A stretch of 64,000 nucleotides of DNA from Roseibium salinum (GTDB lineage: Bacteria; Pseudomonadota; Alphaproteobacteria; Rhizobiales; Stappiaceae), in contig NZ_JAPEVI010000003.1 in assembly GCF_026240905.1 (NCBI RefSeq), forward strand, positions 1,054,001 through 1,118,000. Reading direction: 5' to 3'. Below are positions 26,343 to 32,477 of this stretch, in pieces (the stretch's first letter is position 1; the number at the start of each line of letters is the position of its first letter). The notes below the pieces were generated by a model, which ran no database searches, was not told the DNA's origin, and worked only from the letters and a program-made list of their open reading frames with translations. Both the position numbers and the translations under genes were made by a program.

Positions 26343-26610
26343 GAACAGTTACGACGACGATTCATGCCTGAAATAGTAATAATAGAATTGCACGAAGGCC
26401 ATGCAGTGGTAAACCTACGCATTGATCAGGAAAACAATTGCGGATCGAACATGGAAAGATAAAGGTTAAGTTGGCCGTCACCAGGGTCAGCAACGCTGTC
26501 ACATTCCTCCGGTCAGTAAAGCGCAACTTCACTCCGAATGGATGATTAAAAGCCAAAATTAACTTCCGTGGTAGAGTTTCAAAGGAAATCGGATAAGGTG
26601 ATTGAGATTA

Positions 26611-27111
26611 ATGCTTGATTATATTCACAGCTATTTGTTGTCTCATAAAGATTTTATCGAGACATTCGCATACTTAGCGACAGTATTCGCGTTTCTTGTC
26701 CCTCTACCAGCTTTCGTGATCACAGCATCGATCAAAGTGTACAGCGAAAAGAGAGATCGGGCATTCGGCCTTTTGGACAGAATGAATACGAATGATTCCA
26801 CAAATTTAAGAAATCAAGTTTCAAAGATTTTCGCAGAGAACGAACAATTTGGAGCATGTGAATTCGAAAAATTGAAATTTGAAGATGCAATGGTACTGCA
26901 TGCCTACCTAAATGAAAATGAACTAATCGCGCTGCAGCTAAATACCTCTCGAGTAGAGAGGAGGTTATTTTATAGATATTGGCGATCAGAATACATAGGA
27001 GATTGGAATAAAATCAGCAAATATATTTATTGGCTCAGGAAGTTTTTAAATAATGATAAAATAGCTAATGAATGGGAACTTGCAGCAAAGGCGGCAAAAA
27101 AGGCGAAGTGA
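26611..27111 (+). CDS. membrane protein of unknown function in accessory zone
   Basis: A 166-residue protein in AT-rich DNA clearly unlike the phage genes before it. It starts at ATG behind AAGGTG. One long hydrophobic segment near the N-terminus ('TFAYLATVFAFLVPLPAFVI') anchors it. The remainder is charged and helical and likely cytoplasmic, ending in a Lys-rich tail ('AAKAAKKAK'). The layout (short membrane anchor plus cytoplasmic helical domain) is seen in some exclusion or abortive-infection proteins, but no family is recognised. Confidence 0.65.
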   Translation: MLDYIHSYLLSHKDFIETFAYLATVFAFLVPLPAFVITASIKVYSEKRDRAFGLLDRMNTNDSTNLRNQVSKIFAENEQFGACEFEKLKFEDAMVLHAYLNENELIALQLNTSRVERRLFYRYWRSEYIGDWNKISKYIYWLRKFLNNDKIANEWELAAKAAKKAK

Positions 27112-28318: not shown

Positions 28319-29053
28319 TTGTCTGATTCAATTTCATCCGTCGGAGAGTTGATTGAAGCGATTCGAGCAGAGAGAGACCGCGAAGAAGGGGCGGTATGGT
28401 ACCGCGGTCAATCGAAGGCAAGCTGGCCACTCTTGCCTGGCTTCTTCCGCCAGGAGAACAAAATGTCTGAGGCTAGCTTACTGGCAAGGTTCAAGCAGAG
28501 TGCAGCCTTACTCACCGTGACAAAACCTAACAGTTCATTCGACTGGATCTTCTTAATGCAACACTATGGTATGCCAACGCGCCTCTTGGACTGGAGTGAG
28601 AATCCATTGGTTGCATTGTACTTTTCTGTAGACAAAAGCCATCAGGATGACGATGCCGCTCTGTGGACGCTGCGCCCGAATAAGTTGAATACCCATGCAC
28701 ACATAAATGACAAGGATGAGCCGGACTACATCCCCTCATTTGATGATGATGAGGTTCAAAGCTATTCGACTGAGCGGGTCCGAATTGATAAGAGGATGCA
28801 GCTTTTCCCAATTGCGACAATTGCCACTAGAAACAACCCAAGAATTCAGGCGCAGTTAGGAACATTTACCATACACCACAACGACCGAACTCCTATTGAG
28901 GACGTCGGAACAGGCGCGCAATGCAAGAAGTTTGTAATTCCGGCAGACGCCAAGGGGGTGTTACGCGAGGAGCTCTTCCTCCTCGGAATTAACAAACTGA
29001 GCCTTTTTCCGGAAATCGCAAGCATTAGCGAAACACTTAAGGAAATTGTGTAA
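28319..29053 (+). CDS. FRG-domain protein, first gene of candidate defence pair
   Basis: A 244-residue protein starting at TTG with a GGGGGG-type ribosome-binding site. It has the FRG family signature: 'AVWYRGQSKASWPLLPGFFR' at residues 25-44, 'FLMQHYGMPTRLLDWSENPL' with the conserved Gln-His-x-Gly-x-Pro-Thr-Arg-Leu-Leu-Asp-Trp run, then 'ALYFSV'. FRG proteins are widespread in mobile and defence islands; their biochemistry is largely open. Its TAA overlaps the ATG of the DUF262 gene, so both are made together. A perfect TTGACA lies at 28237, but spacing to TATAAA is too long for a confident promoter. Confidence 0.9.
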   Translation: MSDSISSVGELIEAIRAERDREEGAVWYRGQSKASWPLLPGFFRQENKMSEASLLARFKQSAALLTVTKPNSSFDWIFLMQHYGMPTRLLDWSENPLVALYFSVDKSHQDDDAALWTLRPNKLNTHAHINDKDEPDYIPSFDDDEVQSYSTERVRIDKRMQLFPIATIATRNNPRIQAQLGTFTIHHNDRTPIEDVGTGAQCKKFVIPADAKGVLREELFLLGINKLSLFPEIASISETLKEIV

Positions 29054-30144
29054 TGGCTTATGTTCAGACTTCTACGCTAAAAAACGCAACCATCATGCTT
29101 CTTTACGCGGAGAGAGATGAGATAAAGCTTGACCCCGAATACCAAAGAAGCGGTGGAGTCTGGACCTTAAATAAACGTCGCCTACTGATCGATTCTATCC
29201 TTAACGACTATGATATACCAAAGCTATATTTTCACGACTTGGGCGAAGGGGAGGTGAGCGAGGGCGGTAAGAGGTATTCGGTCATCGATGGTCGACAACG
29301 TCTTGAGACAATTTGGTCTTTTATGGACGGAGAATTCACGCTTTCTGAAGACTTTGAGTATCAGAGAGATAACGATGTAGCTATGGGCGGGTTCACATAC
29401 GAGGATATTGCAAAGAAATACCCAAAAATCAGAATTAAGTTTGATTCATTTGTGCTTCCAGTTGTTCTAGTCTCCGTGACAGAAGATGATATTGATCTAA
29501 TCGAGGATATGTTTTCCAGGCTCAATGAGGCGGTTCCGCTGAACGCCGCCGAGAAACGGAATGCGATAGGAGGCGATTTGGTCGCCGCAATCAACGAGGT
29601 ATCTCGGCATTGTTACTTTACGGATTGCGTGAAGTTTAACGACGCGCGCTACAAGCACCGTGAAGTAGCAGCTCGACTTCTACTTTTGGAGGAATCCCTT
29701 GAAGATCGCGGATCTCTCATTGATACAAAAAGAGAGTATCTCGACGGCTTGGCGAGAAGACTTAGAACTGGGAACGAGCAGAAAGTTCAGTTTTTGAAAG
29801 AGAATGTGGTTTCCACTCTCGATGTCATGACCTCAGTCTTCGCCAGAAAAGATGATCTGTTATTGGCGCAGGGTATTCAGACGGTTTACTATCTCCTATT
29901 CAGAAGCGCCAAGAGATTTGGTGAATTGGGTCGGGTGGACCGCCCTGGATTAGTAGCCTTCAGAAAATCCCTGGCCGAGAATCGTGAAATCGCCGCCTCT
30001 GACTACGAAAAGGCCAGTTTTGATCTTCTTGAGTTTGACCGACTGAACCAACAAGGCACCAATGACGCGAGCAGCATTAAAGAGCGGTATTCTATAATCT
30101 GCAATCACTTCAAGGTTTCGCTCGACCCATTAATAGCGGCGTAA
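29053..30144 (+). CDS. DUF262 (GmrS/ParB-like) protein, second gene of candidate defence pair
   Basis: A 363-residue protein. N-terminal DUF262 motifs are clear: 'LDPEYQRSGGVWTLNKRRLL' (residues 27-46), 'YSVIDGRQRLETIWSFMDGE' (the Asp-Gly-x-Gln-Arg motif), and 'DMFSRLNEAVPLNAAEKRNA'. In GmrSD and SspE these motifs belong to an NTP-dependent ParB-like domain. No DUF1524 HNH nuclease motif is visible in the C-terminal half, so this is a DUF262-only form. Overlap with the FRG gene (TAATG) implies a common task. Confidence 0.9.
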   Translation: MAYVQTSTLKNATIMLLYAERDEIKLDPEYQRSGGVWTLNKRRLLIDSILNDYDIPKLYFHDLGEGEVSEGGKRYSVIDGRQRLETIWSFMDGEFTLSEDFEYQRDNDVAMGGFTYEDIAKKYPKIRIKFDSFVLPVVLVSVTEDDIDLIEDMFSRLNEAVPLNAAEKRNAIGGDLVAAINEVSRHCYFTDCVKFNDARYKHREVAARLLLLEESLEDRGSLIDTKREYLDGLARRLRTGNEQKVQFLKENVVSTLDVMTSVFARKDDLLLAQGIQTVYYLLFRSAKRFGELGRVDRPGLVAFRKSLAENREIAASDYEKASFDLLEFDRLNQQGTNDASSIKERYSIICNHFKVSLDPLIAA

Positions 30145-30519: not shown

Positions 30520-30912
30520 TCAGAACATGATATCGCGGCGGGCAAGGTCAGCCAAATACGCGGAACGTGTCAAACCGCGGGTCTTTGCAGTCTGATCTAC
30601 GGCGTCCAGTAGCCCGGCATCCATCGTGATATTCGCTTTCACGGTTCGGCCTGTGAGTGTGATGAGCGGCACGGCGATCAGGAACGCGCCATCCGCGAGT
30701 TCTTTCGCCACGTATTCGTTTAGGCGAATATCAGTCAACGAGCGGGAAGGCGGAAGGGCTTCGCCTTCGAGGTGCAGAGCAAGAGCTTCAGAAGCGTTAT
30801 TTACGAGTTGATCGAGATCGTCCGCGGAAGAAAAGCAGCCCGGTACATCCGGGAACTGAACACCATAAGAGCTGTCCCCATCTTGATGAGCAAGCGCGAT
30901 ATAGTTACGCAT
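30520..30912 (-). CDS. hicB: HicB-family antitoxin without intact HicA
   Basis: A 130-residue antitoxin. The N-terminal RNase H-like HicB domain has 'HQDGDSSYGVQFPDVPGCFS' and 'ASEALALHLEGEALPPS'. The C-terminal part is a ribbon-helix-helix DNA-binding domain ('KANITMDAGLLDAVDQTAKT', 'GLTRSAYLADLA'). Normally HicB neutralises the HicA RNase encoded just upstream. Here only 137 bases separate hicB from the integrase stop, too little for hicA. The ribosome-binding site is AGGAGGG. Confidence 0.9.
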   Translation of the reverse strand: MRNYIALAHQDGDSSYGVQFPDVPGCFSSADDLDQLVNNASEALALHLEGEALPPSRSLTDIRLNEYVAKELADGAFLIAVPLITLTGRTVKANITMDAGLLDAVDQTAKTRGLTRSAYLADLARRDIMF

Positions 30913-30999: not shown

Positions 31000-31051
31000 T
31001 ATGCGCATACTTGTATGAATGACAATCTTGGTGCGAAACATAATGCGCATT
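31000..31051. promoter_or_regulatory. pair of palindromes upstream of hicB, candidate operators
   Basis: TATGCGCATA (31000-31009) and AATGCGCATT (31042-31051) are perfect 10-bp palindromes sharing the core ATGCGCAT. Their centres are 42 bp apart, about four helical turns. They lie upstream of hicB, whose ribbon-helix-helix domain would bind such sites as dimers. The second overlaps the integrase stop codon. Confidence 0.5.
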
Positions 31052-32378
31052 AAAAGGCTGCGATGCGCCCCTCAACGTCGGACAGAAGATCATCGATCGC
31101 TTCGGCAACTGCGCGTTTGACCGTCAGGTATTCGGCCCGGTCATAATGTTTGCGCGCGACGTCTGCAGCCCGGCCGTGATTGTGCCAGACGTCGATCCAA
31201 TCTCGGTTCAGATTTGGATTCCGATCGATCAGTAGCGTTTTGATGGTCCGGCGAAGGTCCCGGGGTTGAAAGGGCTCGGCCTTTTGCCTGGCACACCACT
31301 TTCGGGCTGCCTGACTAATGCTGTTCAGGGTCTGCGGCTCGTCCGGCTGATGGCTTTTGGGGAACAGGTATGGGCTGCCAGCATCTGAGATCAACATTGC
31401 CGCTTCATAGACAGCTTCCGCCATCCTGGTCAAAGGAAGGTCGTGCGGGTGATTGTTTTTGGTTTTCGGCAAAGCTATCCAGCGCCCCAGCGGTCGTTCC
31501 TGGTACCAACTCTTCTGACTGCGGACGATTTCGGAAATGCGTACACCGCCCATACTTATAATGAGTCGGAAGGTCAGTTTCATTTGGGGGCTGACTCCAC
31601 GGCCGTGATAGCCGTGCCAGAAATCGATCAGCTCCTGCATGGACAACGTCCGATCGCGCGCCTTGCCTTTCATTTTGCCGCCGACATGCGTAACCGGATT
31701 AGCGGTTAAGTTGAAGCGTATGTTCGGGTTCGGATTGGTCGGGTCATAATCGGCCGATAGGCCACGGCTAAAGGCGGCGGACAGATAGGCGCGCGGGTGT
31801 CCGGTCAGAGCGCCGGCCTCGTGGAACTTCCTCAGCCACCTGGTCACGTCGTCGGGCGTCACGCTGTTTGCGGGAATATCGTTTCCTTCATCGTCGAGAC
31901 CAATGACGTTGAGCGCACTGTCTTCCCGTTTGATTAGGTAGTTCTCGTATTCGTCTGCGGTCGCAACTTTCTCGGCGCGCATCTGGCCGATTACGAAGCT
32001 GAACAGGTCACGCACTGTGCCGACCCTATGGTCGTGTTCGGGTGCCCCTTTTGGCTGCGTCGAGCGAGCTTCATCGGCTGCGTCTGCGGCTCGCTGGCGC
32101 GCTTCCTTGAGCCCCATTGCTGGATACTTGCCGAGGGCTATTCTTTTCCTTCCTTCCGGGCCTCTGACCAGGACGGACCACGCCATTGATCGCGAGCCAA
32201 CGCGCAACCGAAGACCTGGAGATAGACTGTCAGCAAATTCTTGTCGGGTGTCGGCCGGCCTCAGGGACTGAAGCCAGCGATCAGTCATCTTCAGGGTTTC
32301 CAAGGCAGATCCTCCGGAACCCAATACGGAACCCAAATCGTTGAGAGTGTCAATCTCTGGGTTCCAAGTGTCATGCAA
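31050..32378 (-). CDS. tyrosine integrase of the prophage
   Basis: Up to 442 residues; a start at 32288 (protein beginning MTDRWLQSLRPADTRQEFAD) is more typical of P4-like integrases. An N-terminal DUF4102-type arm-binding domain ('SLSPGLRLRVGSRS', 'ALGKYPAMGLKEARQRAADA') is followed by a core-binding and a catalytic domain. Catalytic residues are Arg in 'MGGVRISEIVR', Lys in 'LPKTKNN', box II 'QPRDLRRTIKT', His in 'WHNHGRAADVARKHYDR', and the Tyr in the same run. Box II shows Arg where His is usual (HxxR). It lies at the 3' end of tRNA-Lys and runs away from it, the classical position. Confidence 0.92.
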   Translation of the reverse strand: MHDTWNPEIDTLNDLGSVLGSGGSALETLKMTDRWLQSLRPADTRQEFADSLSPGLRLRVGSRSMAWSVLVRGPEGRKRIALGKYPAMGLKEARQRAADAADEARSTQPKGAPEHDHRVGTVRDLFSFVIGQMRAEKVATADEYENYLIKREDSALNVIGLDDEGNDIPANSVTPDDVTRWLRKFHEAGALTGHPRAYLSAAFSRGLSADYDPTNPNPNIRFNLTANPVTHVGGKMKGKARDRTLSMQELIDFWHGYHGRGVSPQMKLTFRLIISMGGVRISEIVRSQKSWYQERPLGRWIALPKTKNNHPHDLPLTRMAEAVYEAAMLISDAGSPYLFPKSHQPDEPQTLNSISQAARKWCARQKAEPFQPRDLRRTIKTLLIDRNPNLNRDWIDVWHNHGRAADVARKHYDRAEYLTVKRAVAEAIDDLLSDVEGRIAAF

Positions 32379-32401
32379 GGGATTGTTTTTTCTGGAATTT
32401 T

Positions 32402-32477
32402 TGGTGAGCCGACAGGGGCTCGAACCCTGGACCTACTGATTAAAAGTCAGTTGCTCTACCAGCTGAGCTATCGGCTC
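32402..32477 (-). tRNA. tRNA-Lys (anticodon TTT), likely attachment site
   Basis: 76 bases including an encoded CCA. The acceptor stem GAGCCGA/TCGGCTC is perfect, the D arm reads AGCTCAGCTGGTAGAGC, the anticodon loop is CTTTTAA, and the T arm is AGGGTTCGAGCCCCT-like. The 3' end faces the integrase gene, so integration probably used the tRNA 3' half as core site. No second copy of that segment occurs in the window; it should lie beyond the left edge. Confidence 0.97.

Follow-up and report, generated by a model that had tools for sequence, protein, structure and literature searches.

We describe two overlapping genes, encoding an FRG-domain protein and a DUF262 protein, that lie within a prophage of Roseibium salinum (contig NZ_JAPEVI010000003.1, positions 1,054,001 to 1,118,000; the 64,000 nucleotides analysed are referred to below as the window). 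Both proteins belong to subfamilies whose genes are found side by side in nearly every locus where this type of DUF262 occurs. We consider it probable that the pair is a single, horizontally moving two-gene defence system, here carried as prophage cargo, in which DUF262 would act as the sensor and FRG as an effector that uses nicotinamide adenine dinucleotide (NAD). On the best reading of the data, the pair is a nuclease-free relative of GmrSD and SspE. In addition, pairs outside the branch that holds the window mostly adjoin cytosine-C5 restriction-modification (R-M) cassettes, nearly all of the Eco29kI type, a link that is new here and absent from the initial annotation of this DNA. The pair consists of the following features:

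28319..29053, + strand: FRG-domain protein gene (Pfam FRG, PF08867), TTG start, 244 amino acids; proposed effector with a predicted ADP-ribosyltransferase (ART)-like fold

29053..30144, + strand: DUF262 (GmrSD_N) protein gene without DUF1524, ATG start, 363 amino acids; proposed nucleoside triphosphate (NTP)-dependent sensor or regulator of DNA state

29051..29055, + strand: stop/start overlap TAATG as read from the sequence, its second A being the one base common to both genes

The single-base overlap, reported as a TAATG junction in the initial annotation and confirmed here, suggests that translation of the two genes is likely coupled. The FRG protein matches PF08867 with an E-value of 6.8e-27 (94.7 bits against a cut-off of 25), and the DUF262 protein matches PF03235 over its cut-off with an E-value of 4.5e-18; GmrSD_N is the current Pfam name for DUF262. 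The YRGQ, QHYGMPTRLLDW and DGRQR motifs noted earlier are all present, and the last forms part of VIDGRQR, an instance of the (I/V)DGxQR nucleotide motif of the GmrSD and BrxU domain. Neither protein has a Pfam match to DUF1524/HNH, a hidden HNH nuclease included, in line with the earlier remark that no such nuclease is visible. Each family has one match in the genome at E<=0.001. Among PADLOC models at E<=0.1, the FRG protein matches those of PDC-S15 only (profile E 3.9e-56), whereas the DUF262 protein scores best on NsnA (2.9e-31) and then on PD-T4-2_A (3.3e-18); the meaning of the name NsnA was not found in the literature searched. No two-gene entry for FRG-DUF262 was found in PADLOC 2023, neither protein matched an NCBIfam model, and promoter and terminator scans returned about as many predictions as in shuffled sequence.

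We evaluated the recurrence of the pair with a DUF262 alignment of five members, run against one genome per GTDB species; 316 relatives came up, of which the 80 top-scoring ones were retained. An FRG gene stands immediately upstream of DUF262, in the same orientation, at 79 of the 80 loci, a count obtained with five seeds that all had an adjoining FRG and of which two (G005 and a Hymenobacter plasmid) were chosen after the pair was known. Eight of the 79 FRG frames are short, split or over-long. The exception, L046, has just 364 bases of contig before DUF262, and we take their translation to resemble the end of an IS66-type transposase. The 80 loci represent 12 named phyla: Pseudomonadota (43), Bacteroidota (18), Acidobacteriota (5), Campylobacterota (3), Verrucomicrobiota (2), Actinomycetota (2), and Thermodesulfobacteriota, Omnitrophota, Bacillota, Chloroflexota, Planctomycetota and Myxococcota with one each, the last locus having no phylum label; single labels may be wrong because many of the loci are metagenome bins. 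In 71 curated pairs, with the DUF262 start taken as the in-frame start codon closest to the end of FRG, a 4-base overlap is seen in 48 and a 1-base overlap in 9; the spacing stays within 11 bases in 70, the remaining one being at 115 bases.

The two alignments were each run against 398 Pseudomonadota genomes. The top five DUF262 matches and the top five FRG matches fall in the same five genomes and are adjacent in all five. A gap in E-value sets these apart from the next match for both DUF262 (5e-105 or better against 6e-38) and FRG (1e-64 or better against 2.5e-40). One of the five pairs is that of the window, one is a seed, and two seem to repeat L100 and L055, so that the search contributes a denominator more than it does new pairs. 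In the window's taxonomic family (87 genomes), DUF262 matches occur in 6 genomes and FRG matches in 16; besides the window, only G005 has both, and there they are adjacent. Protein distances of FRG and DUF262 are correlated across 73 pairs (r 0.88, reached in 0 of 2000 permutations, maximum 0.24), a value uncorrected for common species history on a tree that mixes phyla. The pairing goes beyond chance, as the 79 of 80 loci with an upstream FRG show, and with the five of five in the 398 genomes this rules out chance neighbours.

A first scan of viral contigs with the DUF262 protein alone returned two relatives, both with FRG directly upstream. Overall, FRG was upstream in 15 of 28 viral DUF262 loci (two seeds and two apparent near-copies among them), and these are precisely the loci with E-values of 1e-88 or better; the other 13, all at 5e-36 or weaker, have no FRG. 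Conversely, 12 of 41 viral FRG loci adjoin the DUF262 subfamily, 2 stop at a contig edge and 27 do not adjoin it, two of these 27 having a DUF262 match elsewhere on the locus. The pair is carried by a prophage, viral contigs and a plasmid. On one viral contig (IMGVR_UViG_3300036790_000821; L031/L114) it sits as a moron within an apparent run of tail genes, shortly before a 1313-amino-acid frame that resembles a tape-measure protein.

Pairing does not extend to the wider families. None of 40 distant DUF262 loci and none of 40 other FRG loci, examined with flanks of up to 4.5 kb, holds both families at E<=1e-8, so that the window's FRG protein differs from the FRG proteins of those 40 loci in having a DUF262 of the paired type beside it. 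Together with the unpaired viral loci, these counts rule out that all FRG or all DUF262 proteins are paired, and the lack of pairing in distant members indicates that, in each protein family, the paired members form a subfamily with sharp limits. The initial annotation had inferred that the two genes form one system. This is supported by the genome loci, by all 15 close viral loci and by the 398-genome search. Rare co-occurrence elsewhere, which would have spoken against a single system, is excluded for this subfamily; FRG and DUF262 at large are not generally paired.

The structure model of FRG has an ART-like fold, and Frg is placed in the ART superfamily in the available text of PMC9503650. 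The DUF262 model is BrxU/SspE/ParB-like, includes a large helical domain, and aligns to residues 1-422 of the 580-residue BrxU chain 7p9k; as modelled, the protein resembles the sensor half of BrxU without its nuclease. Consistent with this, DUF262 is 327-380 amino acids long in the 71 curated pairs, from which frames shorter than 300 amino acids were excluded, as against the 580 residues of BrxU. Residues D79, G80, Q82 and R83 of DUF262 are kept in 73 of 73 pairs, and the FRG core residues of the window protein are common to 39 other FRG proteins. Other FRG residues, N124 and R171 among them, are invariant across the pairs but vary in unpaired FRG proteins. The FRG open frames of the five pairs from the 398-genome search span 255-304 amino acids, against a median of 307 in the 45 other places listed. 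FRG proteins this short have little space to spare for a sensor, and it is the partner DUF262 that has the large helical domain. Of the two proteins, DUF262 is more probably the sensor and FRG more probably the effector. A sequence search of solved structures gave a best E-value of 0.029 for FRG and no match for DUF262.

We next consider the genes that surround the pair. On the protein tree, a branch of 54 rows holds the window and 19 rows fall outside it; these 19 take a deep position only because the tree was drawn with midpoint rooting. Of the 19 outside pairs, 15 have a C5 methylase within 4.5 kb; in the window's branch the same holds for 5 of 52 genome loci (Fisher p 4.6e-8, uncorrected for kinship). 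In controls drawn entirely from Pseudomonadota, such a neighbour was found at 2 of the 40 distant DUF262 loci and at 1 of the 40 other FRG loci. The R-M label changes 8 times on the tree, compared with a mean of 18.5 after shuffling. In Pfam matches (E<=1e-6) of the neighbouring genes, 149 of them upstream and 150 downstream, C5-cytosine methylases number 7 and 9, Eco29kI endonucleases 4 and 6, and Vsr 3 and 3, respectively; N6 or N4 DNA methylation families were absent from the Pfam families matched by two or more of these neighbours. A HinP1I match among them is tied to no particular locus.

Of the 19 outside rows, 15 have an Eco29kI-like endonuclease and one has a weak NotI-like match (R-M-linked pairs L089, L093, L096-L103, L105, L106 and L108-L111), and we presume that many of these loci also have Vsr, judging by motif. 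With 15 of 16 being Eco29kI-like, the idea of a constant C5 methylase accompanied by changing endonuclease types was rejected. Relative to the pair, the R-M genes differ in order and strand between loci. Polaromonas and Mesorhizobium are among the sources of R-M-linked pairs. Inside the window's branch, EcoRII occurs at one locus (L085) and an Eco29kI-like enzyme at one locus. Together these data show a link mainly to one kind of C5 cassette, met repeatedly. The window itself departs from this pattern, with no C5 methylase nearby and no PF00145 match in its genome. Two long DUF262 proteins of another subfamily (L238 and L245, about 670-680 amino acids) directly adjoin a C5 methylase gene, and C5 linkage may thus reach some other DUF262 proteins.

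The DUF262 proteins of known systems bind nucleotides, with GmrSD and BrxU responding to modified cytosine, SspE to phosphorothioate and Dazbog likely to methylated DNA, according to the accessible part of PMC10952713. GmrSD and BrxU are type IV restriction enzymes, known for NTP-dependent cleavage of modified-cytosine DNA, and combine DUF262 with the His-Me finger nuclease DUF1524, whereas in the window pair a separate FRG protein occupies the effector slot. SspE is the DUF262-DUF1524 effector of the phosphorothioate Ssp system; the modification that neighbours the FRG-DUF262 pair is instead cytosine-C5 methylation, the window's genome has no C5 methylase, and no nuclease domain was found. 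The window proteins lack DUF1524 and match no Ssp model at E<=0.1, with no search for SspABCD made in the rest of the genome. PD-T4-2, Menshen and Dazbog are, like the window pair, DUF262 systems without DUF1524, but their partners differ from FRG, being a HEPN domain in PD-T4-2 and a predicted OLD nuclease in Menshen (same part of PMC10952713). Although the window DUF262 matches the A model of PD-T4-2, the FRG protein matches no PD-T4-2 or Nsn model. It does pass the domain cut-off of the FRG/PDC-S15 candidate family and has that family's core residues.

In the literature searched, we found no paper that joins FRG and DUF262 and none that works out what an FRG protein does; papers with FRG alone were, judged by title, not about the pair. 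The word FRG is absent from the main text of the 2015 GmrSD phylogenomics paper. Burroughs and Aravind 2020 (J. Bacteriol.), which lay outside this search, may name a DUF262 partner, and is cited for Frg as a candidate immune effector in the available text of PMC9503650. There, Frg is named once among characterised NAD-processing signal enzymes and elsewhere only as a possible NADase.

The left 26 kb of the window is prophage, with portal, tail sheath, tail and endolysin genes. The endolysin gene (PHROG 17001, E 5e-84) lies upstream of the pair and the integrase downstream, and the pair has a G+C content of 0.49 (FRG) and 0.46 (DUF262) against 0.62 in the left 26.3 kb, as expected from the AT-rich slot between lysis genes and integrase that had been described. 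The features to the right of the pair are:

30520..30912, - strand: HicB-like antitoxin gene, a neighbour outside the pair (PF15919, E 1.6e-25; PHROG 497)

31050..32378, - strand: integrase of the element carrying the pair (PF13356, E 3.5e-10; PHROG 1 integrase, E 6.4e-27)

32401..32448, no strand: attR, a 48-bp exact direct repeat in tRNA-Lys; its attL partner lies outside the window at genome C3:1032796-1032843

The integrase abuts tRNA-Lys (32402-32477), and the att repeats bound 53,653 bases, bearing out the proposed prophage location and placing the pair near the right end of this 53.6-kb element. A repeat search within 26.3-34 kb gave no att candidate because the partner repeat is outside the window; it was found by pattern search. 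The hicB-like gene, the sole gene between the pair and the integrase, accounts for the toxin-antitoxin remnant of the initial annotation, and the 137-base gap that separates it from the integrase is, we assume, too short for the usual hicA. The insertion sequence relic proposed alongside it was not substantiated, since the 26-amino-acid fragment that we take to resemble an IS630 transposase end has no Pfam match. Between the lysis genes and the pair lies a gene for a DUF4760 protein (26602-27111, PF15956 E 2.1e-9, G+C 0.37), possibly more cargo.

Just inside the left att site, outside the window, are frames matching HsdR, HsdS and HsdM (type I R-M) and PrrC (genome C3:1033128-1040201; L323:19128-20000 and L322:1-6201), so that both prophage ends carry defence-like cargo and a PrrC match shares the element with the pair. 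PrrC is an anticodon nuclease and a suicide effector tied to a type Ic R-M cassette; we know of no homology between PrrC and FRG-DUF262. A circular phage form would bring these frames close to the pair across the att site. The nearest relative, L107, has its pair among ordinary regulators and a peptidase, and the pair is thus not tied to the window's prophage.

These data allow us to propose a mechanism for the sensor-effector system that we favour. DUF262, combining a ParB-like nucleotide-binding domain with a helical domain of the BrxU type and no nuclease, would read either the state of the DNA, probably cytosine modification, or the state of infection, with NTP binding or hydrolysis as the switch. 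It would then release or activate FRG, a putative ART-fold enzyme expected to use NAD+, either depleting it or ADP-ribosylating a target, and phage growth would come to a halt, with abortive infection as the most likely route. The neighbouring methylase may determine the sensed DNA state in the R-M-linked branches, and in the window's branch the trigger would have to be another, such as a phage modification or a phage protein.

Three other explanations have to be weighed against this. The tight, overlapping operon, the correlated divergence and the carriage on prophage, viral contigs and plasmid would equally be features of a toxin-antitoxin-style module, with FRG as toxin and DUF262 as antitoxin, that mainly stabilises prophages, plasmids and R-M cassettes and gives defence as a by-product; the nearby hicB-like gene suggests turnover of such modules at the site. 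We judge this unlikely, as DUF262 is, at 363 amino acids, far larger than antitoxins usually are, its nucleotide pocket is invariant, its architecture resembles that of BrxU, and the C5 R-M link is unexpected for a plain toxin-antitoxin pair. A second alternative is that the pair keeps watch over methylation or over the intactness of the R-M system, and causes cell death or growth arrest once a phage or plasmid has put that system out of action; in the window it would guard the type I R-M/PrrC cassette or work alone. PrrC guards type Ic R-M in a comparable way. The excess of C5 methylases over both the window's branch and the controls favours such a guard, and the varied arrangement of the R-M genes suggests that the association came about repeatedly and is not a single cassette frozen in place. 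According to PMC12707154, SspE, which likewise contains DUF262, appears to halt growth when its modification partner is missing. Restriction of the link largely to one cassette type, however, means that it may reflect co-inheritance rather than C5 methylation as such, and the window's branch is mostly without it, the window's genome having no C5 methylase. The cassette at the other prophage end is moreover type I, whose methylation is N6-adenine, and a guard function appears improbable to us.

A third alternative, an ordinary accessory pair that travels with mobile DNA and has a role other than defence, NAD metabolism or DNA metabolism for example, seems very unlikely. Relatives L107 and L036 do have ordinary chromosomal genes among their neighbours, but the occurrence of the pair in 12 named phyla, on viral contigs and on a plasmid, its R-M neighbours and the matches of both proteins to defence-model libraries all point away from it. 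A more specific form of the sensor-effector system draws on the guard idea, and we hold it tentatively, as possible but doubtful. Here, a ParB-fold, modification-reading NTPase of the GmrSD/SspE kind would have had its nuclease replaced by an ADP-ribosyltransferase; R-M-linked lineages would guard cytosine-C5 R-M and halt the cell upon subversion of methylation or restriction, whereas the lineage of the window would be free-standing and prophage-borne, with another trigger. If so, invading or wrongly modified DNA would be met with NAD+ loss or ADP-ribosylation in place of cutting.

FRG proteins are widespread, and at almost all the loci examined one of their subfamilies is tied to a single kind of DUF262 partner. 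The pair is compact and cloneable, which makes FRG chemistry testable alongside its likely trigger, and the C5 R-M link of the other branches provides a concrete hypothesis for what that trigger is. This hypothesis would join modification-dependent restriction, R-M guard suicide and NAD-based immunity.
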